Part shown: positions 5,449 to 18,975 of the stretch, piece by piece
How the letters are laid out: every line of letters begins with the position of its first letter
How positions within the stretch are numbered: position 1 is the stretch's first letter
NCBI GenBank assembly: GCA_040756475.1
Contig: JBFLZB010000022.1
Coordinates: 1 to 37,274, forward strand
Reading direction: 5' to 3'
Length of the DNA stretch: 37,274 nucleotides
From: Thermodesulfobacteriota bacterium
Lineage (GTDB): Bacteria > Desulfobacterota > Deferrisomatia > Deferrisomatales > JACRMM01
Notes under the pieces: generated by a model
Databases searched by the model: none
Seen by the model: only the letters and a program-made list of their open reading frames with translations
What the model was told of the DNA's origin: nothing
Translations under genes and position numbers: made by a program

Positions 5449-6627
5449 CTACGCGCTGTATAGCTCGGTAACGCTCTTCGGTAGATGCCCGTTCAACAAC
5501 ATCAATGAGCGGCACGGCATGGACGGGCGCCCGAGTTTGGCCTGTCGCGCGGCGAACGCATCCAGCACCTCGGCTCTGAAATCACGCCCCAAGGCCAGCA
5601 GTCTTTCCTGATCTATTCCGGTGTCAACCCCAATCTCATGGAGCATCGTCACAAGGTCTTCCGTGGAAATCAGGCCATGGTTGAAGTGGTCACTGTAGTA
5701 GTCGCCCTCACGTCCCGGGATGGCAACCCCGTCAACCATGTTGGCCGGTTGCCCGCCGATGCCCGACATGCAGGATTCGAAGCGGATGATTCCGGCTTTG
5801 AGAGCGGCTGCGGCGTTTCTGAGGGCCGAGGCCATGTTCTTGGTGTGGAAGTGCGCGATGTAGAGCTTCGGATCGGAATAGTCGCGACCGTCCGGACCGG
5901 TACCCATCTCTTTGGGGTCGAGCACGCGGCTGAAGAACTCGTAGGCCTTGTGATAGTCGGTAACCGAGCCGTCATGGTCGGCGAGCTCGATATCGTCGGC
6001 CCCGCAATCCAGGTAGCGCTTCACAAAGGAAATGGCGATGTCGAGCTTCTCCGACATGGTGTATTGCTTGTTGAACTTCTCAAAGGGGCTGCCCCAGATG
6101 GTGCTGACGGTACCGTTTACCACGATTCCCCGGCTGTGGGCGGCCTTGATGGTCTGCTCGGTCATGGCAAAGTACTGGTCATGGGTCTTGCCCGAGTTTG
6201 CCTTCTGGTGTTCCGGGCAGGTGGATGTCATCTGCAGTATGCGGTCCGGGCCGAGTCCCCGGTCGAAATCCTTGAACGCGCGCTCGGCACCTGTCTCATG
6301 GATGGTGACGGCGGTCAGTTCCACATCGCCGCCGTTGCGTTTCATCATCTGGCCGATCGTCCTGCCGTCCGGCGCCTTGGTCTCGCTGTTCAGCAGGCGT
6401 TTCAGTACTTCCGTGGCATCCGGGAAGAACGGCACGAACTTCGGGTGGCCGTAGTTCGTGACTTCCAAGCGCTTGAACCCTGCCAGGATCAAGCCCTCCA
6501 GGTACTTGACCTTGGTGTCGGTGTCCACGATTGTTTCCAGAGACTGCAGGCCATCTCTGATGCTGATATCGCTGAGTTCCACTTTTTTTCCAGCAAACTG
6601 TTTCTTGTCAATATAAAGAACTGGCAT
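5449..6627 (-). CDS. HMG-CoA lyase-like (HMGL/pyruvate carboxyltransferase family) protein
   Basis: A 392-residue TIM-barrel protein of the HMGL-like family, which cleaves or forms C-C bonds next to acyl-CoA or 2-oxo acids using a divalent metal. Visible motifs are SDISIRDGLQS (metal Asp, catalytic Arg) at residues 20-30, ELADHDGS in the barrel, the metal-binding HFHTKN strand, and ESCMSGIGGQPAN near the C-terminal end. It is about 90 residues longer than a standard HMG-CoA lyase and differs from the typical lyase GLGGCPYA loop, so the exact substrate is unknown. ATG at 6627 has a good aaaggag Shine-Dalgarno. Base composition is strikingly lower in GC than all neighbours, which suggests horizontal acquisition. 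It is downstream of, and on the same strand as, the hydratase/lyase pair. Confidence 0.85.
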   Translation of the reverse strand: MPVLYIDKKQFAGKKVELSDISIRDGLQSLETIVDTDTKVKYLEGLILAGFKRLEVTNYGHPKFVPFFPDATEVLKRLLNSETKAPDGRTIGQMMKRNGGDVELTAVTIHETGAERAFKDFDRGLGPDRILQMTSTCPEHQKANSGKTHDQYFAMTEQTIKAAHSRGIVVNGTVSTIWGSPFEKFNKQYTMSEKLDIAISFVKRYLDCGADDIELADHDGSVTDYHKAYEFFSRVLDPKEMGTGPDGRDYSDPKLYIAHFHTKNMASALRNAAAALKAGIIRFESCMSGIGGQPANMVDGVAIPGREGDYYSDHFNHGLISTEDLVTMLHEIGVDTGIDQERLLALGRDFRAEVLDAFAARQAKLGRPSMPCRSLMLLNGHLPKSVTELYSA

Positions 6628-6846: not shown

Positions 6847-7629
6847 CTAGCGCCCCTTGTAGGCCGGCTTGCGCTTCTCCCGGAACGCGGCCAGGCCCTC
6901 GCGGCGGTCCTCGGTCGGGATCGTGATCTCGTAGCAGGTGCTCTCGAAGACCAGCGCACTCGCAAGGTCCATCTCCATCCCCCGGTCCACGGCGCGCTTG
7001 GCCACCCGCACGGCAACGGGCCCGTTCTTCGTGATGGCGTCCGCCATGGCCCGCGCCTCGTCCATCAGGGAGGTTGGCGAGACCACCTTGTTGGCAAGCC
7101 CGATGGCCAGGGCCTCCCGGGCGTCGATACGGCGGGCGGTGAAGATGAGCTCCTTGGCCTTGGCCTTTCCCACGATGCGGGGCAGCCGCTGGGTGCCCCC
7201 TGCGCCCGGAATGATGGCCAGGCTGGTCTCCGTGAGGCCCAGGGTGGCCGTCTCGGACACGATGCGCAGGTCCGACGCCAGGGCGAGCTCGGTGCCTCCC
7301 CCGAGGGCGATGCCGTTGACCGCCGCGATGACCGGAACCGGAAGGTTCTCCACCAGGGTGAAGGTGTTGCGGATGGTCTCGATGTAGCGGCGCACCTCAA
7401 CCTCGGCCATGCCGGCTCGCTCCTTGAGGTCGGCCCCCGCGCAGAAGGCCTTCTCGCCGGCCCCGGTCACGATGACACAGCGCGCATCGGCATCGAACTG
7501 CACCTCTTCCAGGGCAGCCCGCAGATCGCGCAGCATGGCCACGTTGACCGAGTTCATCACCTCGGGGCGGTTGAGGGTGATGGTGCAGACACCGCCCTCC
7601 CGGGCCACCCGGACCGTGGATTCGGACAT
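6847..7629 (-). CDS. Enoyl-CoA hydratase, methylglutaconyl-CoA hydratase-like
   Basis: Crotonase-fold enzyme, 260 residues, the standard length, that adds water across a 2-enoyl-CoA. The oxyanion-hole loop is CAGADLKE (near 63-70). Both catalytic glutamates are present: one in GGGTELALASD and one in GLTETSLAIIPGAGGTQRLPR, so hydratase activity is expected. The LAIIPGAGGTQRLPR stretch is closest in my memory to 3-methylglutaconyl-CoA hydratase (LiuC/AUH). That fits its neighbour, because the product of that reaction is the HMG-CoA cleaved by the lyase encoded 48 bases upstream. A generic short-chain enoyl-CoA hydratase is the alternative. The start ATG at 7629 follows an aggagg-like Shine-Dalgarno. 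Confidence 0.9.
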   Translation of the reverse strand: MSESTVRVAREGGVCTITLNRPEVMNSVNVAMLRDLRAALEEVQFDADARCVIVTGAGEKAFCAGADLKERAGMAEVEVRRYIETIRNTFTLVENLPVPVIAAVNGIALGGGTELALASDLRIVSETATLGLTETSLAIIPGAGGTQRLPRIVGKAKAKELIFTARRIDAREALAIGLANKVVSPTSLMDEARAMADAITKNGPVAVRVAKRAVDRGMEMDLASALVFESTCYEITIPTEDRREGLAAFREKRKPAYKGR

Positions 7630-7677: not shown

Positions 7678-8595
7678 TCAGCACGCCGGCGGGGGACAGG
7701 GTGCGGCGCCGGCCGTCCCCAGCTCCGCGAGGCACTCTGTGGCGGCCCGCGCGAGGGCGGGCCGATCGATTCCCGTCTCCACTCCAAGGCTGTGGAGCAA
7801 GTATGCGAGATGGCCCATGTCGGCGTTGCCCCGCGCCCCCGGGGCGAAGGGGCAGCCCCCGAGCCCCCCGATGGAGCCGTCGAACCGGCGTACCCCTGCA
7901 GCCAGCCCTGCCAGGGTGTTGGCGGCGGCCACCCCGAAGGTGTCGTGCAGGTGCAATCCCACCTGCGTGGGCGGGAAGTCCGGGGCAACGGCCTCCACGA
8001 GCCCGGCCACCGCCCGGGGCGACGCTCCGCCGTACGTGTCGCACAGGGTCAGCTCCCGGAAGCCGGCGTCGCCCAACTCCCGAACCAGCCACACAACCCG
8101 CTCCGGCGCGACCGCCCCCTCGTCGGGGTCGATCCAGGCCATGGAAACCGCGATCCGGGTCCTCGCCCCCGCGGCGTGCGCGTCGCGGGCCAGCGCCCCG
8201 AGGTCCGCCAGCACCTGGGAGACCGTTCGCCCCAGGTTGGCGCGGCTGTGGGTCTCGGTGGCCGAGACCATGCACACCAGGTTGCGGGCGCCGGCCGCCA
8301 GCGCCTCTTCAAGCCCGCGCCGGTTGGGAACCAGCACCCAGAGGCGCTCGGCATAGGGCTGCAGGATTTTGAGGACCTGGGCCGCGCCCGCCATCTGCGG
8401 CACCCGCCCCGGGTGGACGAAGCTGCCCGCTTCGGCCTCCGGCACCCCCGCGTCCAGGAGCCGGCGAATCCACGCCGCCCTCCGGGCCGGAGAGAGGGCC
8501 TGGGACACCGCCTGGAGGCCGTCCCGGGCAGAGACCTCCACCACCGCGGCCCGGGAGGGGAGAGACTGAAGCACCTTACGTAAACTGGCAAACAT
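7678..8595 (-). CDS. mvaB: Hydroxymethylglutaryl-CoA lyase
   Basis: Cleaves 3-hydroxy-3-methylglutaryl-CoA to acetyl-CoA and acetoacetate, the last step of leucine/isovalerate catabolism. The 305 residues match the family (~300). Motifs: VVEVSARDGLQ (metal/catalytic Arg-Asp), EAGSFVHPGRVPQMA, LHLHDTFG (metal-binding His pair) and GGLGGCPFAPGARGN with the catalytic-loop Cys. The chosen start, ATG at 8595, has ggagg about 12 bases upstream and a good promoter. An in-frame GTG at 8574 is the alternative. The first codons after the ATG include AGT, TTA and CGT, rare in this DNA, because they coincide with the repeated motif at 8571-8592. First gene of a two-gene operon with the hydratase; the HMGL-like gene may be a third member. 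Confidence 0.9.
   Translation of the reverse strand: MFASLRKVLQSLPSRAAVVEVSARDGLQAVSQALSPARRAAWIRRLLDAGVPEAEAGSFVHPGRVPQMAGAAQVLKILQPYAERLWVLVPNRRGLEEALAAGARNLVCMVSATETHSRANLGRTVSQVLADLGALARDAHAAGARTRIAVSMAWIDPDEGAVAPERVVWLVRELGDAGFRELTLCDTYGGASPRAVAGLVEAVAPDFPPTQVGLHLHDTFGVAAANTLAGLAAGVRRFDGSIGGLGGCPFAPGARGNADMGHLAYLLHSLGVETGIDRPALARAATECLAELGTAGAAPCPPPAC
8571..8592. promoter_or_regulatory. 22-bp motif, copy 1 (within mvaB 5' end)
   Basis: This stretch matches 8800-8821 at 20 of 22 positions, with the shared core ACGTAAACTGG. It lies in codons 2-8 of mvaB as annotated, where it imposes AT-rich rare codons (TTA for Leu, CGT for Arg). That suggests the DNA is conserved for binding rather than coding. 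It contains the small palindrome TTACGTAA. A MerR/LiuR-type or other regulator site is an inference. Confidence 0.5.
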
Positions 8596-8640
8596 GCCCG
8601 GGGACTCGCCCTCCGTGGAAACAAACAGCGGTAGGGACGC

Positions 8641-8670
8641 TGTATACCGGAAAGCAACCCCGCCCGTCAA
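8641..8670 (-). promoter_or_regulatory. Sigma-70-type promoter of mvaB operon
   Basis: Reading leftwards, TTGACG (-35, 8670-8665), an 18-base spacer, then TATACA (-10, 8646-8641). The start of transcription would be near 8634, about 40 bases before the mvaB ATG. Confidence 0.75.
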
Positions 8671-8690
8671 CGCCAACCGGACGGTTGGCG
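8671..8690. promoter_or_regulatory. Palindromic operator candidate, copy 2
   Basis: CGCCAACCGGACGGTTGGCG is a perfect palindrome with 9-bp arms and a 2-bp centre, touching the -35 box of the mvaB promoter. It is the fuller version of the palindrome at 1351-1370, which occupies the same place relative to the hydroxylase promoter. A dimeric repressor of the TetR kind is the simplest explanation. Confidence 0.65.
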
Positions 8691-8799
8691 GTCGCGGGCC
8701 CACACGAGAAGAGGCGGGGAGAACTGCCGCAGGAGGCCGTGACGTTCCTGCCCGGGGAGGATGGCGCGGCCTCCGGTGCCCTCCCGCGGCAGGATATTC

Positions 8800-8821
8800 G
8801 CACCTCACGTAAACTGGAAAA
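8800..8821. promoter_or_regulatory. 22-bp motif, copy 2 (upstream of livG promoter)
   Basis: Second copy of the motif at 8571-8592 (20/22 identical, core ACGTAAACTGG), in direct orientation. It ends 5 bases before the -35 hexamer of the livG promoter, the normal position for an activator or a MerR-type site. The flanking sequences of the two copies are unrelated, so this is not simply a larger duplication. Confidence 0.55.
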
Positions 8822-8826
8822 AGGGT

Positions 8827-8856
8827 TTGACGGAAAAAGTCGAACGGTGTTATACC
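8827..8856 (+). promoter_or_regulatory. Sigma-70-type promoter of livG operon
   Basis: TTGACG (8827-8832), an 18-base spacer and TATACC (8851-8856). It has the same layout as the divergent mvaB promoter. The transcript would have a leader of about 40 bases before the livG start. Confidence 0.75.
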
Positions 8857-8902
8857 TCGCCCCCGTCGCATACCTACCGGGTGATAGATAAGGAGCATGC
8901 CC

Positions 8903-9694
8903 ATGGACACCCCGGCCCAGCTCCAGGTGGACGGCATCCACCTGAGCTTCGGCGGCGTCAACGCCCTCATGGACGTCGGCTTCCAGGTAAAGCAGGGAGA
9001 GATCTTCTCGATCATCGGCCCCAACGGGGCCGGCAAGACGAGCATGCTCAACTGCATCAGCGGGCGCTACACTCCCCAGCGGGGGCGTATTGCCTTCGAA
9101 AACACCGAGATCACCGGACGACCCCCGGCCTTGCGGTCTCAGCTCGGCATTTCGCGCACGTTCCAGAACATCGCCCTCTTCAAGGGGATGACCGTGCTCG
9201 ACAACATGCTCATCGGCCGCCATATCCACCTCAAGAGCGGCTTCCTCAAGGGGGGTATCTACCTGGGCCCCTGCCAGAGGGAGGAGATCGAGCACCGCAA
9301 GTTCGTCGAGGACATCATCGACTTCCTTGAGATCGAGCACATCCGCAAGAAGGTGGTGGGCACCCTGGCCTACGGCCTCCAGAAACGGGTTGAGCTCGCG
9401 CGCGCCCTGTCCCTGGACCCCAAGCTCGTGCTCCTGGACGAGCCCATGGCGGGGATGAACCTGGAAGAGACCGAGGACATGGTGCGCTACGTTCTCGACA
9501 TCAACAACGAGTGGGGGGTCACGGTGGTGCTCGTCGAGCACGACATGGGCGTCGTGATGGACATCTCCGATCGGGTCGTGGTGCTCGACTTCGGCCAGAA
9601 GATCGGCGAGGGCACGCCCGAGGAGGTCCAGAAGAACCCCGCCGTCATTCGGGCCTACCTGGGAGACGAGGAGTCGGTGTTCTTGGGGCGGTAG
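8903..9694 (+). CDS. livG: Branched-chain amino acid-type ABC transporter ATPase, LivG family
   Basis: One of the two ATP-hydrolysing subunits of a Liv/HAAT-type importer. 263 residues: Walker A GPNGAGKT (39-46), Q-loop near 88, LivG-specific insertion around 110-130, signature LAYGLQKR (155-162), Walker B LVLLDE (175-180) and the switch His in VEHDMGVV. The start is taken at ATG 8903 because the aaggag Shine-Dalgarno is seven bases before it; the ATG at 8897 would be only one base from that site. First gene of a long operon that also encodes two permeases, a binding protein, LivF and two acyl-CoA ligases. This suggests the imported compound is an organic acid rather than an amino acid. Confidence 0.94.
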   Translation: MDTPAQLQVDGIHLSFGGVNALMDVGFQVKQGEIFSIIGPNGAGKTSMLNCISGRYTPQRGRIAFENTEITGRPPALRSQLGISRTFQNIALFKGMTVLDNMLIGRHIHLKSGFLKGGIYLGPCQREEIEHRKFVEDIIDFLEIEHIRKKVVGTLAYGLQKRVELARALSLDPKLVLLDEPMAGMNLEETEDMVRYVLDINNEWGVTVVLVEHDMGVVMDISDRVVVLDFGQKIGEGTPEEVQKNPAVIRAYLGDEESVFLGR

Positions 9695-9790
9695 TTGCAC
9701 GTTGCACGTTGCGCGTTGCACGTTGCACGTTGGTCGCAGCCGAGCCTCCGAACCCAGGTTTCCAACGAGCAACGGGCAACGAGCAACAAG
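9694..9790. repeat. Heptamer array with inverted partner
   Basis: Five tandem units of GTTGCNC (9694-9728) plus a partial one are followed, after about 30 bases, by four units of CAACNNG (9763-9790), the reverse-complement form. Arm 9708-9733 pairs with 9762-9787 at 23 of 26 positions, with all mismatches at the same place in each 7-bp unit. The RNA could form a long hairpin between livG and the synthetase gene. The first unit begins on the last base of the livG stop codon. Confidence 0.8.
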
Positions 9791-9813
9791 CAGATTCCAC
9801 TCAGGAGACCACA

Positions 9814-11730
9814 ATGGTTCATCTTCCCCACGACACGCTTCCCAAGCTCCTGCGCCACAACGCCATGAAGTATGGGGACGGCAAGGTGGCCCTGCGGGAG
9901 AAGGAGTTCGGGATCTGGCAGCCCTTCACCTGGAAGGAGTACTACGAGCACGTCAAGTACTTCTGCCTCGGGCTCGTCTCGATGGGGCTCGAGAAGGGCG
10001 ACACCATCTCCATCATCGGCGACAACCGCCCCGAGTGGGTCTACGCCGAGCTCGCGGCCCAGTGCGCGGGGGCCGTGGGGATCGGGATCTACCAGGATTC
10101 CATCCTGAAGGAGGTCTCCTACATCATCAACCACGCGGCCTCGAAGTTCATCGTGGCCGAGGACCAGGAACAGGTGGACAAGGTCCTCGACATGGGCGAC
10201 GAGCTCACCACCGTGCGCCATGTCGTCTACACCGACAGCCGGGGAATGAGCAAGTACGACGACGACCGGCTGATCTTCTTCCCGGAAGTCGAGGAGAAGG
10301 GCCGCCAGTACGAGAAGGATCACCCGGCCCTCTTCGACCAACTCGTGGACGCAACCCGGACCGACGAGCCGGCCCAGATCTGCACCACGTCGGGAACCAC
10401 GGGCAACCCCAAGCTCGCCGTGCTCTCCCACCGCAACATGATCTCCATGGCGGCGAACCTGGGAGAGGTCGACCCCAAGCGCGAGACCGACGAGTTCGTG
10501 AGCTTTCTGCCCCTGCCCTGGATCGGGGAACAGATGATGGGGGTGGCGAGCGCGCTCCTCTTCGGCTTCACGGTGAATTTCCCCGAATCTCCCGAGACCG
10601 CCACGGACAACATTCGGGAAATTGGTCCCCACGTGCTCTTCAGTCCGCCACGGGTGTGGGAGAACCTGGCCGCCACGGTGCAGGTCAAGATCATGGACGC
10701 CTCGTGGCTCAAGCAGTTCCTCTACAACCGGTTCCTGCCCGTCGGCTACGAGTGGGCGGATCTCAAATTCCAGAAGAAGCAGCCCTCCCTCGCCCAGAAG
10801 CTTCGCTACGCCCTGGGCTACCTCCTGGTCTTCCGAGCCCTCAAGGACCGGCTGGGTTTTACCTTCGTGCGCTCGGCCTCCACCGGGGGCGCCGCCCTGG
10901 GGCCCGACACCTTCCGGTTCTTCCACGCCCTCGGGGTGAACCTGAAGCAGATCTACGGCCAGACGGAGATCTCGGGCATTTCGTGCATTCATCGGGACGG
11001 GGACATCAACTTCGACTCCGTGGGGAAACCCATCCCCGAGACCGAGGTGCGCATCGACAACCCAGATCCCCAGGGGGTGGGAGAAGTGGTCTCCCGCAGT
11101 CCCGCCCTCTTTCTCGGTTACTACAAGAACGAGGAGGCCACCCGCGAGACGATCCTCAACGGCTGGCTTCATTCGGGCGACGCTGGGTACTTCACCCCGG
11201 ACGGCCACCTCATCATCATCGACCGGATGAAGGACATCATGACGATGACGAGCGGGGAGCGCTTCAGCCCCCAGTTCATCGAGAACAAACTAAAGTTCAG
11301 CCCCTACATCAAGGAAGCGGTCTGTATCGGACACCAGAGAGACTTCGTGATCTCCATGATCTGCATCGACTTCGGCATCGTCGGAAAGTGGGCCGAAGAC
11401 CGCCGGATCAACTACACCACCTACACAGACCTGGCCGCGAAACCCGAAGTCTACGACTTCCTGGAAAAGGAGGTACGCAAGGTCAACGCAACGCTGGTGG
11501 AGTCGCAGAAGGTCAAGAAGTTCATCCTGCTCTACAAGGAGCTCGACGCCGACGACGACGAGCTCACGCGTACTCGGAAGGTCCGTCGAGGCTTCATCGA
11601 CGAGAAGTACAAGGACATCATCGAGGGCATCTACGCCGGCCAGGAGCAGATCCACATCGACACCCTGATCAAGTACCAGGACGGCAAGACCTCGCAGCTC
11701 AAGACGACGCTGCCGGTGCGGACACTCTAG
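9814..11730 (+). CDS. AMP-forming acyl-CoA synthetase, long-chain (FadD-like) type
   Basis: Activates a carboxylic acid to its CoA thioester with ATP, giving AMP and PPi. The 638 residues match long-chain-type synthetases (~600-650). Motifs are complete: P-loop TTSGTTGNPK (about 191-200), IYGQTEISG, SGDAGYF with the ribose-binding Asp, DRMKDIMTMTSGE hinge, and a C-terminal lysine region with the TRTRKVRR motif typical of this subgroup. ATG 9814 has a caggaga Shine-Dalgarno. The gene is wedged between livG and livH of a transporter operon. Inference: the ligase traps the solute brought in by that transporter as its CoA ester. The acid may be aliphatic or aromatic; the family name does not decide chain length. 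Confidence 0.92.
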   Translation: MVHLPHDTLPKLLRHNAMKYGDGKVALREKEFGIWQPFTWKEYYEHVKYFCLGLVSMGLEKGDTISIIGDNRPEWVYAELAAQCAGAVGIGIYQDSILKEVSYIINHAASKFIVAEDQEQVDKVLDMGDELTTVRHVVYTDSRGMSKYDDDRLIFFPEVEEKGRQYEKDHPALFDQLVDATRTDEPAQICTTSGTTGNPKLAVLSHRNMISMAANLGEVDPKRETDEFVSFLPLPWIGEQMMGVASALLFGFTVNFPESPETATDNIREIGPHVLFSPPRVWENLAATVQVKIMDASWLKQFLYNRFLPVGYEWADLKFQKKQPSLAQKLRYALGYLLVFRALKDRLGFTFVRSASTGGAALGPDTFRFFHALGVNLKQIYGQTEISGISCIHRDGDINFDSVGKPIPETEVRIDNPDPQGVGEVVSRSPALFLGYYKNEEATRETILNGWLHSGDAGYFTPDGHLIIIDRMKDIMTMTSGERFSPQFIENKLKFSPYIKEAVCIGHQRDFVISMICIDFGIVGKWAEDRRINYTTYTDLAAKPEVYDFLEKEVRKVNATLVESQKVKKFILLYKELDADDDELTRTRKVRRGFIDEKYKDIIEGIYAGQEQIHIDTLIKYQDGKTSQLKTTLPVRTL

Positions 11731-11827: not shown

Positions 11828-12718
11828 ATGGAGTTCTACGTCCAGTTGATCGTGAGCGGGCTCGTGCTGGGGTCGATCTACGCCCTGGTGGCCCTGGGGT
11901 TCGCCATCATCTACAAGTCCACGAGCGTCGTGAACTTCGCCCAGGGCGAGTTCCTGATGCTCGGGGCGTACTTCTGCTTCTCCATGGTGGTGCAGTACCG
12001 CATCCCGTGGCTGTGGGCGTTCCTGCTGACCCTGGTCTTCTCCGTCGTTTTGGGCCTGTTGGTGGAGCGGCTGATCCTGCGGCCCATGATCGGCGAGCCG
12101 ATCATCTCGATCATCATGGTCACGATCGGGCTTTCCTCGGTCTTGAAGAGCGTCGTCACCACGATCTGGGGCACCCAGATCCAGATCTACGACCCGCCGC
12201 TCTTCCCGGACGCGCCCGTAAACATCGCGGGCATCCCCATCAGCCAGGTGTACCTGTGGAGCATGGGGCTCTCCCTGCTCCTCCTGGCGCTCTTCGGGCT
12301 CTTCTTCAAGTACTCGAAGGCCGGCGTCGCCATGCGGGCAACGGCCTTCTCGAACCAGGTGGCCCTGTCCATGGGGATCAGCGTGAAGAACATCTTCGCC
12401 CTCGCCTGGTGCATCGCGGTGGTGGTCTCCTCCATCGGCGGCATCCTGATCGGCAACATCAACGGCATCAACATCTCCCTGGGGCACTTCGGGCTCAAGG
12501 TGTTTCCGGCCGTCATCCTGGGCGGGCTCGACTCGATCCTCGGGGCGGCCCTGGGAGGTCTCATCATCGGCGTCTTGGAGAACCTGTCCGACGGGGTGCT
12601 AAAATCCCTCTTCGGTCTTCAGGGCATCAAAGAGGTCGCGCCCTTCGTCTTTCTGGTGATCATCCTCATGGTGAAGCCCTACGGGCTCTTCGGCACCAAA
12701 GAGATCGAACGGGTGTAG
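11828..12718 (+). CDS. livH: Branched-chain amino acid-type ABC permease, LivH family
   Basis: Inner-membrane permease subunit of the importer, 296 residues, standard length. About eight hydrophobic segments are visible. The N-terminal VSGLVLGSIYALVALGFAIIYKSTSVVNFAQGEFLMLGAY block is the family hallmark (key residues G-x-IYAL-A-G, NFAQG-F-M-GA). The cytoplasmic loop for contact with the ATPases has RATAFSNQVALSMGI (EAA-like), and GGLDSILGAALGG lies near the end. ATG 11828 follows an acggagg Shine-Dalgarno. It pairs with LivM to form the channel. Confidence 0.95.
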   Translation: MEFYVQLIVSGLVLGSIYALVALGFAIIYKSTSVVNFAQGEFLMLGAYFCFSMVVQYRIPWLWAFLLTLVFSVVLGLLVERLILRPMIGEPIISIIMVTIGLSSVLKSVVTTIWGTQIQIYDPPLFPDAPVNIAGIPISQVYLWSMGLSLLLLALFGLFFKYSKAGVAMRATAFSNQVALSMGISVKNIFALAWCIAVVVSSIGGILIGNINGINISLGHFGLKVFPAVILGGLDSILGAALGGLIIGVLENLSDGVLKSLFGLQGIKEVAPFVFLVIILMVKPYGLFGTKEIERV

Positions 12719-12743
12719 ACCAGATTCTCCAGGGCTTTGCCTG

Positions 12744-12778
12744 GCTGACCGCTGACCGCTAGGAGCTGAGAGCTGACA
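12744..12778 (+). repeat. GCTGANN heptamer array abutting livM start
   Basis: Five tandem units (GCTGACC twice, GCTAGGA, GCTGAGA, GCTGACA) end one base before the base preceding the livM ATG. The only Shine-Dalgarno-like sequence for livM, aggag at 12761-12765, lies inside the third unit, so the array doubles as the ribosome-binding region. Confidence 0.65.
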
Positions 12779-12779
12779 C

Positions 12780-13832
12780 ATGAGCGTCCATCACTGCGGG
12801 GATTTCAAACAAACCTACGCCGACGACATGAAGGTGATGCAGACCCGCTTCATCCAAGTCTGCATCGGGCTCTTCGTCATTCTCCTGTACGTCTTCCCCT
12901 ACCTGGGCTCGAACTACCACGTCAGCGTGATGAACAAGATCGGCATCGCGGTGATCGGCGCGGTGGGGATCAACATCGTCACGGGGTTCACGGGGCAGAT
13001 CTCCCTGGGCCAGGGTGCGTTCCTCGGAGTCGGCGCGTTCGCATGTTCGTACTTCATGCGGGAGTGGAACATTCCCTTCTGGTTCGCCATGCCCATGGCA
13101 GGCCTCACCACGGCCGCGATCGGGATGGTGTTCGGCAGCCCCAGCCTCCGCCTCAAGGGGCTGTATCTCGCCATCGCCACCCTTGCGGCCCAGTTCATCC
13201 TGGAGTACCTCTTCCTCCACGTGGACAAGGTGACCGGCGGCAGCAACGGCGTGATGTTTCCCTCCCCCGAGATCGGGTCCTTCGCCTTCGACGACGACCG
13301 GTCCATGTACTATCTCATCCTCACGGTGGCGATCATCGGGGTCCTCTTCGCGGTAAATCTCTTCCGCTCCAAGGACGGCCGCGCCTTCGTGGCGGTACGC
13401 GACCACTACCTCTCGGCAGAGATCATGGGGATTCACCTCTTCCGGTACCGGCTGCTTTCGTTTGCCATCAGTTCGTTCTACGTCGGCGTGGCCGGGAGCC
13501 TGTGGGGAGCCTACACCCAGTACATCACCCCGGAGCACTTCACCATCCACGAGTCCATCCACTACCTCGCCATGATCATCATCGGGGGGCTGGGAAGCGT
13601 GCTCGGGGCCATCTTCGGCGCGATCTTCATGACGCTGCTGCCCTTCGTCCTCACGGGGGTCACGGCAAACCTGGCCGACTACTTTCCCCAGGCGGGGTAC
13701 TTCATACAGAGCCTCAGAGAGGGAATTTTCGGCCTCATCGTGATCCTTTTCCTGATCTTCGAGCCGGACGGCATTGCCCACCGCTGGCGGCTCATCAAGG
13801 CCTACTGGAAGCTCTATCCCTTCAGCTACTGA
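12780..13832 (+). CDS. livM: Branched-chain amino acid-type ABC permease, LivM family
   Basis: Second inner-membrane permease subunit, 350 residues. It has a hydrophilic N-terminus (about 20 residues), then about nine or ten hydrophobic segments. Family marks are NIVTGFTGQISLGQGAFLGVGAFA (GQISLG-GAF core), RLKGLYLAIATLA, VRDHYLSAEIMGIHLFRYRLLSFAISSFYVGVAGSLW and IGGLGSVLGAIFGA. ATG 12780 is the first start in frame; another ATG at 12828 is possible, but neither has a clean Shine-Dalgarno apart from the repeat-borne aggag. Partner of LivH, and a fourth member of the same transcript. Confidence 0.94.
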   Translation: MSVHHCGDFKQTYADDMKVMQTRFIQVCIGLFVILLYVFPYLGSNYHVSVMNKIGIAVIGAVGINIVTGFTGQISLGQGAFLGVGAFACSYFMREWNIPFWFAMPMAGLTTAAIGMVFGSPSLRLKGLYLAIATLAAQFILEYLFLHVDKVTGGSNGVMFPSPEIGSFAFDDDRSMYYLILTVAIIGVLFAVNLFRSKDGRAFVAVRDHYLSAEIMGIHLFRYRLLSFAISSFYVGVAGSLWGAYTQYITPEHFTIHESIHYLAMIIIGGLGSVLGAIFGAIFMTLLPFVLTGVTANLADYFPQAGYFIQSLREGIFGLIVILFLIFEPDGIAHRWRLIKAYWKLYPFSY

Positions 13833-13943
13833 GGGCAGGAAAGGAGGGCCGGTCAGACACCGAGAGAACGGGAAGTCACCTCGAGGGAGGAATCCGGTTC
13901 GATTTCGTATCGGGAGAGCACGGCACATCATAGGAGGTACACC

Positions 13944-15110
13944 ATGAAGCACATCCGCACCCTGCTCGGGCTCGTGGCCGCGGTGGCCCTGGCCGGCACC
14001 AGCTTCGCCCAGGAGATCGTCATCGGGAACCTGGCCGACATCACGGGCGGAACCGGCTCCGTGGGCAAGCCCTACGCCGACGGCATCCGGGCCTACACCG
14101 ACTACATCAACGCCCAGGGCGGCATCAACGGCAAGCAGATCAAACTCTTGCAGATCGACTACGCCTACAAGATCCCCGAGGCCCTGAACGCCTACAAGAA
14201 GTTCAAGGACTCGGACAAGGCCGTGGCCATTCAAGGCTGGGGCACGGGTGATACCGAAGCACTGGTCGCGCAGGTGAACCGGGACGAGATGCCGTACTAC
14301 TCGGCGTCGTATTCGGCCCACCTCACCGACCCGTCCAAGAGCAAGTACAACTTCTTCATCGCCGCCGACTACTCCACCCAGGCCCGGGCGGGGCTCACCT
14401 ACCTCAAGAACAACTGGAAGGAAAGCCGCAAGCCCAAGCTGGCTCTCGTCTACCCCGACCACCCCTACGGCAAGGCGCCGATCCCGGCAATCAAGAAGTT
14501 CGCTGAAGAGATCGGGTTCGAGCTCGTGGGCGAAGAGAACGTGGCCCTCAACGCCATCGAGGCCACCACCCAGATGCTCAACCTCAAGAAGAACGAGCCC
14601 GACTTCGCGTGGCTCGGGGGCACGACCCCCTCTTGCGCCGTGGCCATCAAAGACGCCCGCAAGCTCGGCCTCAAGACGGTCTTCCTCGTGAACATCTGGG
14701 GCAACGACGAAGACCTGCCGCGGCTCGCGGGTGGCGCCGAGGAAGGGACCTTCGGACTCCAGGGCGCGGTGACCTACGGGGCCGACGTCCCCGGCATGAA
14801 GCCCATCCTCGAGGTCACCAAGAACCAGCCCCAGATGACCCACTTCATCCGCGGCTGGACCTCCATGCTGGTCATGTGCGAGGCCCTCAAGCGCGCCGAC
14901 GCAGCGGGAAAGCTCAACGGCCGAGGGATCAAGGAGGCCTCCGAGACCCTCCGGGACTTCGACACCGGGGGGTTGACCGCCCCCATCACGTTCACCCCCG
15001 AGGATCACCGGCCGACCATGTCGGCGGTGATCGTGAAGTACGTGGGCGGCAAGCCCGTGACCCAGGAGACCGTCGTCCTCGAGCGCAAGGCCGAGTGGCT
15101 CGGTTTGTGA
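13944..15110 (+). CDS. Periplasmic substrate-binding protein of the Liv-type transporter
   Basis: Captures the solute in the periplasm and delivers it to LivHM. The 388 residues start with a classical signal peptide: MKH, a hydrophobic core, and cleavage after TSFA before QEIVIG. The mature part has the two-lobe type I fold signature of LivJ/LivK (PYADGIRAYTDYINAQGGINGKQIKLL; YPDHPYGK in place of the usual D-x-x-YG). ATG 13944 has a strong taggagg Shine-Dalgarno. The ligand cannot be told from sequence. The acyl-CoA ligases in the operon suggest a carboxylic acid (fatty, dicarboxylic or aromatic) rather than leucine. A stem-loop directly after the stop may protect this part of the message, as is common for abundantly made binding proteins. 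Confidence 0.93.
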   Translation: MKHIRTLLGLVAAVALAGTSFAQEIVIGNLADITGGTGSVGKPYADGIRAYTDYINAQGGINGKQIKLLQIDYAYKIPEALNAYKKFKDSDKAVAIQGWGTGDTEALVAQVNRDEMPYYSASYSAHLTDPSKSKYNFFIAADYSTQARAGLTYLKNNWKESRKPKLALVYPDHPYGKAPIPAIKKFAEEIGFELVGEENVALNAIEATTQMLNLKKNEPDFAWLGGTTPSCAVAIKDARKLGLKTVFLVNIWGNDEDLPRLAGGAEEGTFGLQGAVTYGADVPGMKPILEVTKNQPQMTHFIRGWTSMLVMCEALKRADAAGKLNGRGIKEASETLRDFDTGGLTAPITFTPEDHRPTMSAVIVKYVGGKPVTQETVVLERKAEWLGL

Positions 15111-15124
15111 GAACCTGAGAAGGT

Positions 15125-15151
15125 GGCGGGAGGGCCTCAAGCCCTCCCGCC
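15125..15151 (+). terminator. Intercistronic stem-loop after the binding-protein gene
   Basis: An 11-bp perfect stem, GGCGGGAGGGC with GCCCTCCCGCC, around a CTCAA loop, 14 bases after the stop codon. No U-run follows, so full termination is unlikely. A partial attenuator or 3'-end stabiliser that makes binding-protein mRNA exceed livF mRNA is the better reading. Confidence 0.65.
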
Positions 15152-15218
15152 CTTCCCCGCGGGCCCCCGCGACACGACGGGGACCCGCCGGGACGGGAAA
15201 TCCACCCGAGGAGAAGCC

Positions 15219-16013
15219 ATGCTCAACGTGAACAATGTCGAGGTCGTCTACAACGACGTCATCCTGGTGCTCAAGGGGCTCTCCCTCCAGGCTCAGGAAG
15301 GTCAAATCACCACCATCCTGGGCGCCAACGGCGCCGGCAAGTCCACCACCCTCAAGGCCATCTCGGGGCTCCTCAAGAGCGAGGAGGGCGAGGTGACGGA
15401 GGGGACGATCGAGTTCATGGGGGAGAAGATCAACGGCGTCGATCCCGAGAAGATCGTGCGCAAGGGGATCTTTCAGTGTATGGAAGGACGGCGGGTTTTC
15501 GAGGACCTGGACGTGGTGGAGAACTTGCGCTGCGGCGCCCACACCCGGAACGACCGCGCCGGGGTGAAGCGGGATATCGACCTGGTCTTCACCTACTTCC
15601 CGCGCCTCCAGGAGCGCCGGGCGTCCCTGGCCGGCTACCTCTCCGGCGGAGAACAGCAGATGCTCGCCATCGGCCGCGCCCTCATGGCGCGCCCCAAGCT
15701 CATGCTCCTCGACGAACCGAGCCTGGGGCTCGCGCCGCTCCTGGTGAAGGAGATCTTCGGGATCATCCAGAAGATCAACGCCGAGGAGAAGACCACCATC
15801 CTGCTCGTGGAGCAGAACGCAAACCTGGCCCTCCAGGTGGCCAGTTACGGGTACATCATGGAAAACGGGAAGGTCGTGCTCGACGGACCCTGCGAGAAAC
15901 TGCGGCAGAATCCCGACGTGAAGGAGTTCTACCTGGGCGTGGGGGAGAGCGGGCACAAGCGTTCCTTCAAGAACGCCAAACACTACAAGCGCCGCAAGCG
16001 GTGGCTTTCGTAG
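15219..16013 (+). CDS. livF: Branched-chain amino acid-type ABC transporter ATPase, LivF family
   Basis: Second ATPase subunit of the importer, 264 residues. Walker A GANGAGKST (near 37-45), signature LSGGEQQMLAIGRAL, Walker B LMLLDEPSLGLAPLL and switch region LLVEQNANLAL. ATG 15219 follows a gaggagaa Shine-Dalgarno. After the usual LivF end (FYLGVGE) the protein continues with about 22 mostly basic residues ending KHYKRRKRWLS. I recall this extension in LivF paralogues whose operons carry acyl-CoA ligases. It may contact the membrane or the neighbouring ligase, which is inference only. Confidence 0.94.
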   Translation: MLNVNNVEVVYNDVILVLKGLSLQAQEGQITTILGANGAGKSTTLKAISGLLKSEEGEVTEGTIEFMGEKINGVDPEKIVRKGIFQCMEGRRVFEDLDVVENLRCGAHTRNDRAGVKRDIDLVFTYFPRLQERRASLAGYLSGGEQQMLAIGRALMARPKLMLLDEPSLGLAPLLVKEIFGIIQKINAEEKTTILLVEQNANLALQVASYGYIMENGKVVLDGPCEKLRQNPDVKEFYLGVGESGHKRSFKNAKHYKRRKRWLS

Positions 16014-16035: not shown

Positions 16036-17301
16036 ATGCGCATGGATCGGACACAAGGGTTCCTGAACCCGGAGCGCGAGACGCGCAGCTGGGACGAGCA
16101 GCTCGCAGGCATGGAAGCGGAGCTGGGCAAGCTCCTGCCTCATGCCTACGCCAACGCCCCGGCCGTTCGGGCAAAGTTCGACGCCGTCGGCGCAGCCCCA
16201 CAGGATATCCGCACCGTCGGCGATCTGGCTCGGGTGCCGGTAACCTCGAAGATGGAGTTGGTGGAGCTCCAGAAGAAGGACCCGCCGTTCGGAGGGCTGC
16301 TGGCCGTTCCGCTCAAGGAGATCGCACACGTCTTCCAGTCGCCGGGCCCCATCTACGACCCCATTGCCCGGGGCGAGGGGTGGGGCTTCGAGGAGGCATA
16401 CTACGCAGCGGGGTTCCGGCCCGGCGACCTGGTCGTGAACACCTTCGGGTACCAAGTGACCCCCGGCGGGATGATGTTCGACGACAGCCTGCTCAAAGCC
16501 GGCTGTGCCGTGGTGCCCATGGGGGGAGGCGAACGGGAGACCCAGGTGGAGATCCTGCGCCGGCTCCCTGTTGCCGGGTATCTCGGGATGGCGTCGTTCC
16601 TGATGCAGATTGCAGAAAAGGCCCGGGAGATAGGCCTCGATCCCCGGCGCGACTTCTCCCTCGAGGTGGCCTGGAGCATCGCCGAGCCGCTGCCTCCCAG
16701 CCTGCGCCAGGCCGTCGAGGACACCTTTGGCTGTCTGTGCCGGCAGGGCTACGGTACCGCCGACGTCGGGTGCATCGGCTTCGAGTGCTTCCACCTGGGG
16801 GGGTGGCACCTGACCTCCCGGGCCATCGTCGAGATCGTGGATCCCACCGACGGAAGGCCCCTGGCCCCCGGCGAGATTGGGGAAGTGGTGGTGACCCTGC
16901 TCAGCCACGCGTACCCCCTGATCCGATTCGGCACCGGGGACCTCTCGGCCCTCGACCCCGGCGCGTGCGCCTGCGGCCGCCGATCTCCCAAGCTGCGGGG
17001 CTGGCTTGGAAGGGCCGACCAGCTCGTGAAGGTGAAGGGCCAGTTCGTCCACCCCGGGCAGCTCCAGGGAGCCCTCAAGGACTTTCCCGAGGTGCGCCGC
17101 TTCCGTGCCGTGGTGACCCGGGAAGGGAGCCGCGACGTGCTCGCGGTGCGGGTCGACGCGCAGCCCGACGATGCCCTCAAGGCCCGACTCGAAGAGCGCC
17201 TGCGCGAGGTGCTGCGCATTGGGGCCACCGTGGTCTGGGCGGCCCCCGCTCAACTGCCCGAGGACGGAAAGATCCTCGAGGACGCCCGCACGTGGGAGTA
17301 A
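16036..17301 (+). CDS. Phenylacetate-CoA ligase (PaaK) family protein
   Basis: ANL-superfamily adenylate-forming enzyme of the PaaK branch, about 421 residues (PaaK ~430). Clear motifs are YGTADVG near 240, FGTGDLS near 300, a CxCGRRSPKL Cys pair region, GRADQLVKVKGQFVHP (hinge) and a C-terminal GK in LPEDGKILED. The ATP phosphate-binding loop, normally SSGTTGKPT, reads QSPGPIYDP here, so either catalysis differs or this is a special subgroup. ATG at 16036 or 16042; the ggagagggg just before favours the second, but both are close. It lies 22 bases after livF and ends inside the MerR gene. Probable substrate: an aromatic or other acid taken up by the transporter. Confidence 0.85.
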   Translation: MRMDRTQGFLNPERETRSWDEQLAGMEAELGKLLPHAYANAPAVRAKFDAVGAAPQDIRTVGDLARVPVTSKMELVELQKKDPPFGGLLAVPLKEIAHVFQSPGPIYDPIARGEGWGFEEAYYAAGFRPGDLVVNTFGYQVTPGGMMFDDSLLKAGCAVVPMGGGERETQVEILRRLPVAGYLGMASFLMQIAEKAREIGLDPRRDFSLEVAWSIAEPLPPSLRQAVEDTFGCLCRQGYGTADVGCIGFECFHLGGWHLTSRAIVEIVDPTDGRPLAPGEIGEVVVTLLSHAYPLIRFGTGDLSALDPGACACGRRSPKLRGWLGRADQLVKVKGQFVHPGQLQGALKDFPEVRRFRAVVTREGSRDVLAVRVDAQPDDALKARLEERLREVLRIGATVVWAAPAQLPEDGKILEDARTWE

Positions 17302-17711
17302 GAGCCCAGGGACGCGGGCGGGCGGACCAGGAAGGCCGCAGCCCCCCGCCGTTCACCATCGGCGACCTGTCGCGCCAGGTGGGGCTCACCCCCCGCACGA
17401 TCCGCTACTACGAGGACATCGGGCTCCTGAACAGCGTGCGCCGGGTGGAGGGGGGACGGCGCATCTACACCGAGGAAGACATTCGGCGCCTGCGGTTCAT
17501 CAAACGCCTCAAGGTCCTGGGCCTGTCCCTGGAGGACATGGCCGAGCTCGAAAACCTCTATGTGACGCACCGGAGCAACGATCGGGTGCTCCCCCGCCTG
17601 CTGGAGCTCCTGGACCGCCACATGCAGACCCTGGACGCGCGCATCGAGCAGCTCAACATCCTCAAGCAGGATATCGAAAGCTATAGGGACCACATCCGCC
17701 AAAAACTGTAG
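17292..17711 (+). CDS. MerR-family transcriptional regulator
   Basis: Dimeric DNA-binding regulator, 139 residues. The N-terminal winged helix-turn-helix FTIGDLSRQVGLTPRTIRYYEDIGLL starts near residue 21 (key RTIRYYE-GLL signature), with wing GGRRIYTEEDIRRLRFI. A long coiled-coil dimerisation helix follows (about 85-135). The Cys residues of metal-sensing MerR proteins are absent, so an organic ligand such as an acyl-CoA is likelier, as in LiuR-type regulators of branched-chain acid catabolism. The start is GTG at 17292, overlapping the ligase gene by 10 bases, with gagga nine bases upstream; no ATG is available before the HTH. It probably controls this operon and perhaps the divergent mvaB genes. 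The repeated 22-bp motif is a candidate site. Confidence 0.88.
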   Translation: MGVRAQGRGRADQEGRSPPPFTIGDLSRQVGLTPRTIRYYEDIGLLNSVRRVEGGRRIYTEEDIRRLRFIKRLKVLGLSLEDMAELENLYVTHRSNDRVLPRLLELLDRHMQTLDARIEQLNILKQDIESYRDHIRQKL

Positions 17712-17820: not shown

Positions 17821-18975
17821 ATGGCCCTGAACTTCGATCTCACCACCGAGCAGAACATCCTGCGCCAAAGCGTGCGGGAGTTCGCCGAGAAGGAAATCCG
17901 CCCCGTCGCCCGAGAGCTCGACGCCCGGGAGGAGTTCAGCTACGAGGTGACCGCCAAGATGGCCCAGATGGGGCTGCTTGGCGTCTTCGTCTCCCCGGAA
18001 TACGGGGGAAGCGGGCTCGACTACGTCTCGTACATCATCGCCGTGGAGGAGATCGCCCGGATCGACGGTTCCCAGGCGGCCACCATTGCAGCCGGAAACT
18101 CGCTTGGCATCGGCCCCATCTACTACTTCGGCAGCGAGGAGCAGAAAAAGCGCTGGCTGCCCAAGCTCTGCACCGGAGAGCTCCTGGCGGGGTTCGGCCT
18201 CACCGAGCCCCTCGCGGGGTCCGATGCGGGCTCCTCCCGAACCCGCGCGGTGCGAGACGGGGACGAGTGGGTGCTGAGCGGGTCCAAGATCTTCATCACC
18301 AACGCCGCCACCGACACCACCGGGGTCATCGTGGTGCAGGCGGTCACCGGCAAGAAGAGCGACGGCCGAAACGAGCTCTCCTGCTTCCTCGTGCCCGCCG
18401 ACGTGGCCGGCCTCACCCGCAAGGCCATGCACGGCAAGATGATGTGGCGCTCGTCCAACACCGCCGAGCTCTATTTCGACGACGTGCGCCTGCCCGCCGA
18501 CGCCATCCTGGGCCGCCAGGGCGATGGGTTCCGGCAGATGCTCTCCACCCTCGACGGGGGCCGCCTCTCCATCGGGGCCATGGGTCTTGGGGGTGCCCAG
18601 GGAGCCTTCGAGCTCGCCCTCCGGTACGCCCAGGAACGCAAACAGTTCGGCCAGGCCCTCTTCGAGTTCCAGGCCATCCAGTTCAAGGTGGCCGACATGG
18701 CCATGGAGATCGAGGCCGCCCGAAACCTCCTCTACAAGGCGTGCTGGCTCAAGGACAACGGACGCCCCTACGGCAAGCAGGCGGCCATGGCCAAGCTCTA
18801 CTGCTCCGAAGTGATGGGACGGGTGGTGGGCGAAGCCGTGCAAGTGCACGGCGGCTATGGCCTCATGCAGGACTACGACGTAGAGCGGTTCTTCCGGGAT
18901 CAGAAGCTCCTCACCATCGGAGAAGGCACGAGCGAGATCCAGCGCCTGGTCATCGCCCGCCACCTGCGGGAGTAA
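17821..18975 (+). CDS. Acyl-CoA dehydrogenase
   Basis: FAD enzyme introducing a trans-2 double bond into an acyl-CoA and passing electrons to ETF. 384 residues, standard length. It has the N-terminal helical domain, FGLTEPLAGSDAGS (FAD/substrate motif), the middle beta domain, and a C-terminal domain with the catalytic Glu in IGEGTSEIQR (Glu368). That is the short/medium/branched-chain position; isovaleryl-CoA dehydrogenase keeps its base elsewhere, so that identity is less likely. ATG 17821 follows a ggggaggag Shine-Dalgarno. It starts 109 bases after the MerR gene, probably in the same operon, supplying the first oxidation step after CoA activation. Confidence 0.94.
   Translation: MALNFDLTTEQNILRQSVREFAEKEIRPVARELDAREEFSYEVTAKMAQMGLLGVFVSPEYGGSGLDYVSYIIAVEEIARIDGSQAATIAAGNSLGIGPIYYFGSEEQKKRWLPKLCTGELLAGFGLTEPLAGSDAGSSRTRAVRDGDEWVLSGSKIFITNAATDTTGVIVVQAVTGKKSDGRNELSCFLVPADVAGLTRKAMHGKMMWRSSNTAELYFDDVRLPADAILGRQGDGFRQMLSTLDGGRLSIGAMGLGGAQGAFELALRYAQERKQFGQALFEFQAIQFKVADMAMEIEAARNLLYKACWLKDNGRPYGKQAAMAKLYCSEVMGRVVGEAVQVHGGYGLMQDYDVERFFRDQKLLTIGEGTSEIQRLVIARHLRE

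Follow-up and report, generated by a model that had tools for sequence, protein, structure and literature searches.

Members of the MerR family of regulators usually act within the long (19-20 bp) spacer that separates the -35 and -10 boxes. Operators can also be located inside genes; intragenic operators such as lac O2 act as roadblocks. LiuR is a MerR-family protein that represses the utilisation of isoleucine, leucine and valine (PMC3223726). Here we analysed a stretch of 37,274 nucleotides (the window) in which mvaB and a liv operon are divergently oriented, the latter encoding a MerR-family regulator (Table 1). The comparisons presented below make it highly probable that two copies of a motif, one in the first codons of mvaB and one upstream of liv, would be operators of this MerR protein, in an explanation that as a whole includes a block at mvaB, contact with the polymerase at liv and an acyl-CoA signal.

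The window protein is recognised by the MerR family models PF13411 (E 6e-22) and PF09278 (E 3e-12), both above cut-off, and has the same DNA-binding fold and family models as MerR, CueR, ZntR, CadR and SoxR. Unlike these classic activators, however, it lacks metal-binding cysteines (there are no cysteines in its 120-residue core, and none in 37 of 39 orthologous sequences) and it scores far under the cut-offs of the metal-sensor equivalogs CueR/ZntR/CadR/MerR (best 77 bits, cut-off 143).

Resemblance to LiuR of the Proteobacteria lies in the combination of a MerR-family protein with predicted sites at genes for the breakdown of acyl-CoA and branched-chain amino acids, including mvaB, liv and dehydrogenase/mutase genes. 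At a Photobacterium liuR locus the sequence TAACATTTACGTAAACGTTA precedes the operon, and its core, TTnACGTnAA, is the same as that of the window palindrome; the flanks are AACG-like and CAS..STG, respectively, the LiuR side of this comparison coming from one liuR locus only. In contrast to LiuR, the predicted window regulon includes the liv transporter, one operator lies within mvaB codons and one site is at -55 of liv; in addition, some genomes carry both proteins. The window protein was not placed as a LiuR: in a tree, Photobacterium LiuR groups with the other MerR proteins of the order (99/97), outside the window clade, a result limited by short sequences and long branches. MerR matches of Sinorhizobium meliloti pSymA and Sphingobium lie outside liu-type loci and were rejected. 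The locus apparently carries a switch for branched-chain amino-acid and acyl-CoA breakdown of a known general kind, with a regulator lineage separate from LiuR. Like lac O2, one window site is inside the coding start of the gene that it would regulate; unlike lac O2, it overlaps codons 3-8, and similar leader sites would serve merR and acyl-CoA dehydrogenase genes phylum-wide. The literature searched, mainly non-subscription papers with RegPrecise regulons outside its scope, contained no description of this operator.

Motif copies and their conservation in the order

According to the preliminary description of this region, a 22-bp motif is present on both sides of the divergent promoters in two copies that agree at 20 positions and are 229 bp apart. 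Direct comparison of GCACCTTACGTAAACTGGCAAA (8571-8592) with GCACCTCACGTAAACTGGAAAA (8800-8821) gave the same values, and the two copies are real. The unit is not a 22-bp direct repeat, however, as alignment of relatives identified the 16-bp imperfect palindrome CASYTnACGTnARSTG as the functional unit. This pattern was built on the sites of the order and had to be matched strictly; weaker sites are therefore missed, and its invariant positions are partly so by construction. It matched three times in the 5.0-Mb genome to which the window belongs, and the reversed control pattern did not match at all. The third palindrome (G000:C128) is located 5' of an operon for acyl-CoA dehydrogenase and methylmalonyl-CoA mutase. 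The 11-mer ACGTAAACTGG, common to both window copies, has no further exact match in the genome; allowing one mismatch produced six extra copies, compared with eight for the reversed control, and apart from the third palindrome these are mostly chance matches. When the window was scanned for extra sites with up to three mismatches, none was found above chance.

Aligning the region in relatives had been proposed in the preliminary description. When the sequences 5' of mvaB were aligned among relatives from the order, whose mvaB is 55-61% identical, the liv copy was kept in all seven site-bearing genomes and the mvaB copy in six of them, namely the window's own genome, G004 and G007 to G010; the seventh, G001, has the liv copy alone, as a perfect CAGTTGACGTCAACTG. 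The palindrome is present one to three times per genome in these seven of the 12 order genomes and absent in the other five, and the reversed control was absent from all 12. The third site was found in the window's own genome and in G007, G008 and G009. Orthologues of the window MerR protein, 63-74% identical, are encoded in exactly the seven site-bearing genomes, downstream within the liv operon. Separately, a diverged MerR gene (44%) was observed directly 5' of mvaB on contig C27 of G006 (L055, L087), with no recognisable operator.

Table 1. Genes and predicted control elements of the window
Feature	Position	Strand	Remarks
Second HMGL-like protein	5449..6627	-	
Enoyl-CoA hydratase	6847..7629	-	3' of mvaB
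mvaB, hydroxymethylglutaryl-CoA lyase	7678..8595	-	306 codons including stop; probable start ATG at 8595; NCBIfam NF004283 above cut-off
Operator 1 (predicted)	8572..8587	-	CAGTTTACGTAAGGTG on mvaB-sense strand; mvaB codons 3-8; palindrome kept here in 6/7 order genomes with divergent locus
Predicted mvaB promoter	8637..8671, ends approximate	-	TTGACG-N18-TATACA; 18-bp spacer and form common to six genomes retaining mvaB site
Operator 2 (predicted)	8801..8816	+	CACCTCACGTAAACTG; immediately 5' of liv -35 box; kept in 7/7 genomes
Predicted liv promoter	8829..8860, ends approximate	+	TTGACG-N18-TATACC; conserved in 7 genomes
livG, branched-chain amino-acid type ABC ATPase	8897..9694	+	First gene of liv operon
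AMP-binding acyl-CoA ligase	9511..11730	+	PF00501; start uncertain
livH, livM, livJ, livF	11828..16013	+	
Phenylacetate-CoA-ligase-like AMP-binding enzyme	16036..17301	+	
MerR-family regulator, proposed binder	17292..17711	+	PF13411, PF09278; co-occurrence, sites before merR, tree
Acyl-CoA dehydrogenase, liv operon	17821..18975	+	Orthologues in other families directly carry the predicted operator (L090, L104, L106)

Site geometry and proposed mode of action

Relative to transcription starts, which like the promoters were predicted from consensus boxes only, the liv site is centred between -54 and -56 in each of the seven genomes and the mvaB site between +33 and +54 across six genomes (+54 in the window). 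Unlike those of classic MerR activators, the predicted sites are thus outside the promoter spacer rather than inside one of 19-20 bp, and the spacers are 18 bp. The mechanism would therefore differ from that of textbook MerR proteins, which makes the positions of the predicted sites of note for the MerR family. A similar arrangement was observed in family f16: here too the liv site lies 5' of the -35 box, and the two are separated by a further, degenerate copy (CAGGTTACGGAAGGTG); at L135 and L136, 5' of livG in this family, the degenerate copy is found within TTGCCAGGTTACGGAAGGTGGCAA. In the merR leaders of families f30 and f17 the site is downstream of the -10 box. The right arm of the operator in the f30 leaders (L127-L131), AAGGTGG, also resembles the merR Shine-Dalgarno sequence.

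We envisage that a dimer of the MerR protein would bind CASYTnACGTnARSTG. At mvaB, protein bound within the first codons, some 35-55 bp past the predicted transcription start, would block the young elongating polymerase, resulting in repression, and we lean towards such a roadblock. At liv, protein bound at the fixed position of about -55, just 5' of the -35 box, would touch RNA polymerase and either activate or hold back transcription; contact of this kind appears reasonably probable. For merR itself the simplest reading would be repression by blocking, as at mvaB, and the third site would control the acyl-CoA dehydrogenase/methylmalonyl-CoA mutase operon. The signal would be an acyl-CoA derived from the breakdown of branched-chain amino acids, a type of ligand that we somewhat favour. 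Control of both operons through the two sites, as put forward in the preliminary description, is likely.

The same description suggested that the two sites are joined by looping, in which dimers or tetramers of the MerR protein would bridge them and control both operons jointly. Paired sites are kept in six genomes, and their distances (229, 261, 263, 263, 286 and 345 bp) all deviate from whole turns at 10.5 bp by no more than about a quarter turn, but this helical phasing is not significant (p ~0.1 for the six genomes and 0.3 when these are collapsed by genus). Moreover, of the two sites G001 retains only that of liv, the liv site is locked at a fixed distance from its own promoter, and a single site before merR suffices in other families. 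Looping is therefore unsupported, and we consider it unlikely.

A different inverted repeat, CGCCAACCG-GA-CGGTTGGCG, is present at 8662-8699, where it overlaps the predicted mvaB -35 box, and resembles a TetR-type operator; this palindrome was not evident in the mvaB upstream sequences of the relatives.

The MerR protein of the liv operon as probable binder

Searches at the family, order and class level yielded only 2, 12 and 12 genomes, respectively, and for this reason a sample of 395 genomes of the phylum was used, in which orthologues of the window MerR protein were defined by E below 1e-35. The motif was present in 60 of the 63 genomes with an orthologue and in eight of the 332 without one (Fisher p = 4e-58 before correction for relatedness; related genomes, representing 15 families, overstate independence). 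All three orthologue-containing genomes that lack the motif belong to family f17; they have variants of it with one arm, CACGTTACGTAAACTG or CAGTTTACGTAACCTG, which lie close to merR or 5' of it. Three of the eight motif-only genomes are members of family f45 that are 78-90% complete, and other f45 members have both the motif and the MerR protein. The remaining five contain one site each, matching the level of the reversed control pattern, which gave a single match in each of 14 of the 395 genomes.

A MerR gene often shares an operon with its target genes, so that co-occurrence alone is weak; the binder argument is therefore carried by the separate third site and by sites in front of merR. Such a site directly precedes merR in at least 27 genomes, belonging to families f11, f16, f30, f75, f90 and f96, at distances of about 10-125 bp, and it is often the sole site of the genome or one of two. 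In families f33 and f69 the site is on the contig of merR, 1.7-3.5 kb before that gene and, where examined, 5' of an acyl-CoA ligase gene. These results and the distribution of the motif support the proposal, made in the preliminary description, that the MerR protein of the liv operon is the binder, and it is very likely that this protein binds the palindrome. By every comparative test applied, the protein and CASYTnACGTnARSTG behave as a regulator/operator pair.

Sites precede livG in family f16 and an orthologue of the window acyl-CoA dehydrogenase in families f12, f45 and f14; further sites across the phylum precede genes for CoA ligase, thiolase, CoA transferase and mutase subunits. The motif search at other acyl-CoA genes called for in the preliminary description has thus returned matches at several classes of such genes. 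Among f45 genomes, the more complete ones (e.g. G148:C218, G174:C333, G220:C16 and G056:C2) contain 4-8 sites, some of them paired 23-24 or 65-73 bp apart and, where examined, 5' of acyl-CoA ligase genes, which suggests an expanded regulon with paired operators.

That another regulator binds the motif, for instance the LiuR-type MerR protein found in several of these genomes, is very improbable. LiuR-type proteins are indeed present in G001, G002, G003 and G007-G009, and the core shared with the palindrome of the Photobacterium liuR locus is identical; however, in G002 and G003 the LiuR-type protein adjoins mvaB and yet no such site is present, G000, G004 and G010 have sites with no LiuR-type match at E <= 1e-12, and it is the window-type merR that is preceded by sites in many families. 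LiuR was rejected as binder on the distribution of sites relative to LiuR-type proteins, together with the tree. At the LiuR-type loci themselves, L016 and L017 (G002 and G003), mvaB follows the LiuR-type MerR gene and the window motif is missing; AATTGCAAACGTAAATTTG near L017 is a possible LiuR-type site.

With the window-type MerR protein as predicted binder, a MerR orthologous group present in about one sixth of the sampled phylum genomes can be assigned a regulator, its operator and a small regulon. A broader reading is offered only tentatively: a MerR lineage separate from LiuR may govern acyl-CoA and branched-chain amino-acid metabolism in a large part of the phylum through very few sites per genome, with one palindrome acting in two ways, blocking from within coding or leader sequence in the case of mvaB and merR and contacting the polymerase from -55 in the case of liv, and without the promoter untwisting of textbook MerR proteins.

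Codon choice at the mvaB start

The 5' end of mvaB reads ATG TTT GCC AGT TTA CGT AAG GTG. The preliminary description had concluded that the motif forces the odd codons AGT, TTA and CGT (codons 4-6) in a gene that otherwise uses G/C-ending codons almost exclusively. The rarity of these codons was borne out: elsewhere in the confident genes of both operons TTA is used for none of 364 Leu codons, and among all predicted window genes TTA accounts for 3 of 1057 Leu codons, AGT for 16 of 438 Ser codons and CGT for 40 of 811 Arg codons. The wording "almost exclusively" slightly overstates the bias of mvaB, as 30 of its 296 other codons end in A or T. The mvaB start of the window at 8595 is likely, although its ribosome site is weakly spaced. 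It is supported by G007-G009, where the gene starts with a GTG that is aligned with the window start and has a strong Shine-Dalgarno sequence, and where the site is therefore within the coding sequence.

In G001, the relative that lacks the mvaB site, the mvaB start contains AGC TTG CGC AAG, so that the SLRK peptide is retained, whereas neither the site in the DNA nor the unusual codons remain. Persistence of SLRK would fit conservation of S/T-L-R-K/E at the protein level plus AT-rich early codons with no binding site, but this can practically be dismissed, given that the palindrome is preserved although third-position bases are free, that TTA is otherwise absent from the operon genes, that G001 returns to AGC TTG CGC once the site is lost, and that the same palindrome occurs in non-coding DNA 5' of liv. 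Selection on DNA binding, proposed in the preliminary description as the simplest cause, is strongly supported by the conservation in relatives, by the co-occurrence of site and MerR orthologue, by the sites before merR and by the return to ordinary codons in the relative that lost the site. The mvaB start would thus be a clean case of a binding site that dictates codon choice, with a natural control in a relative that regains ordinary codons on losing the site. At the mvaB start of G001 (G001:C59, L010) a palindromic remnant, GATCTTGCGCAAGCTG, persists after loss of the operator.
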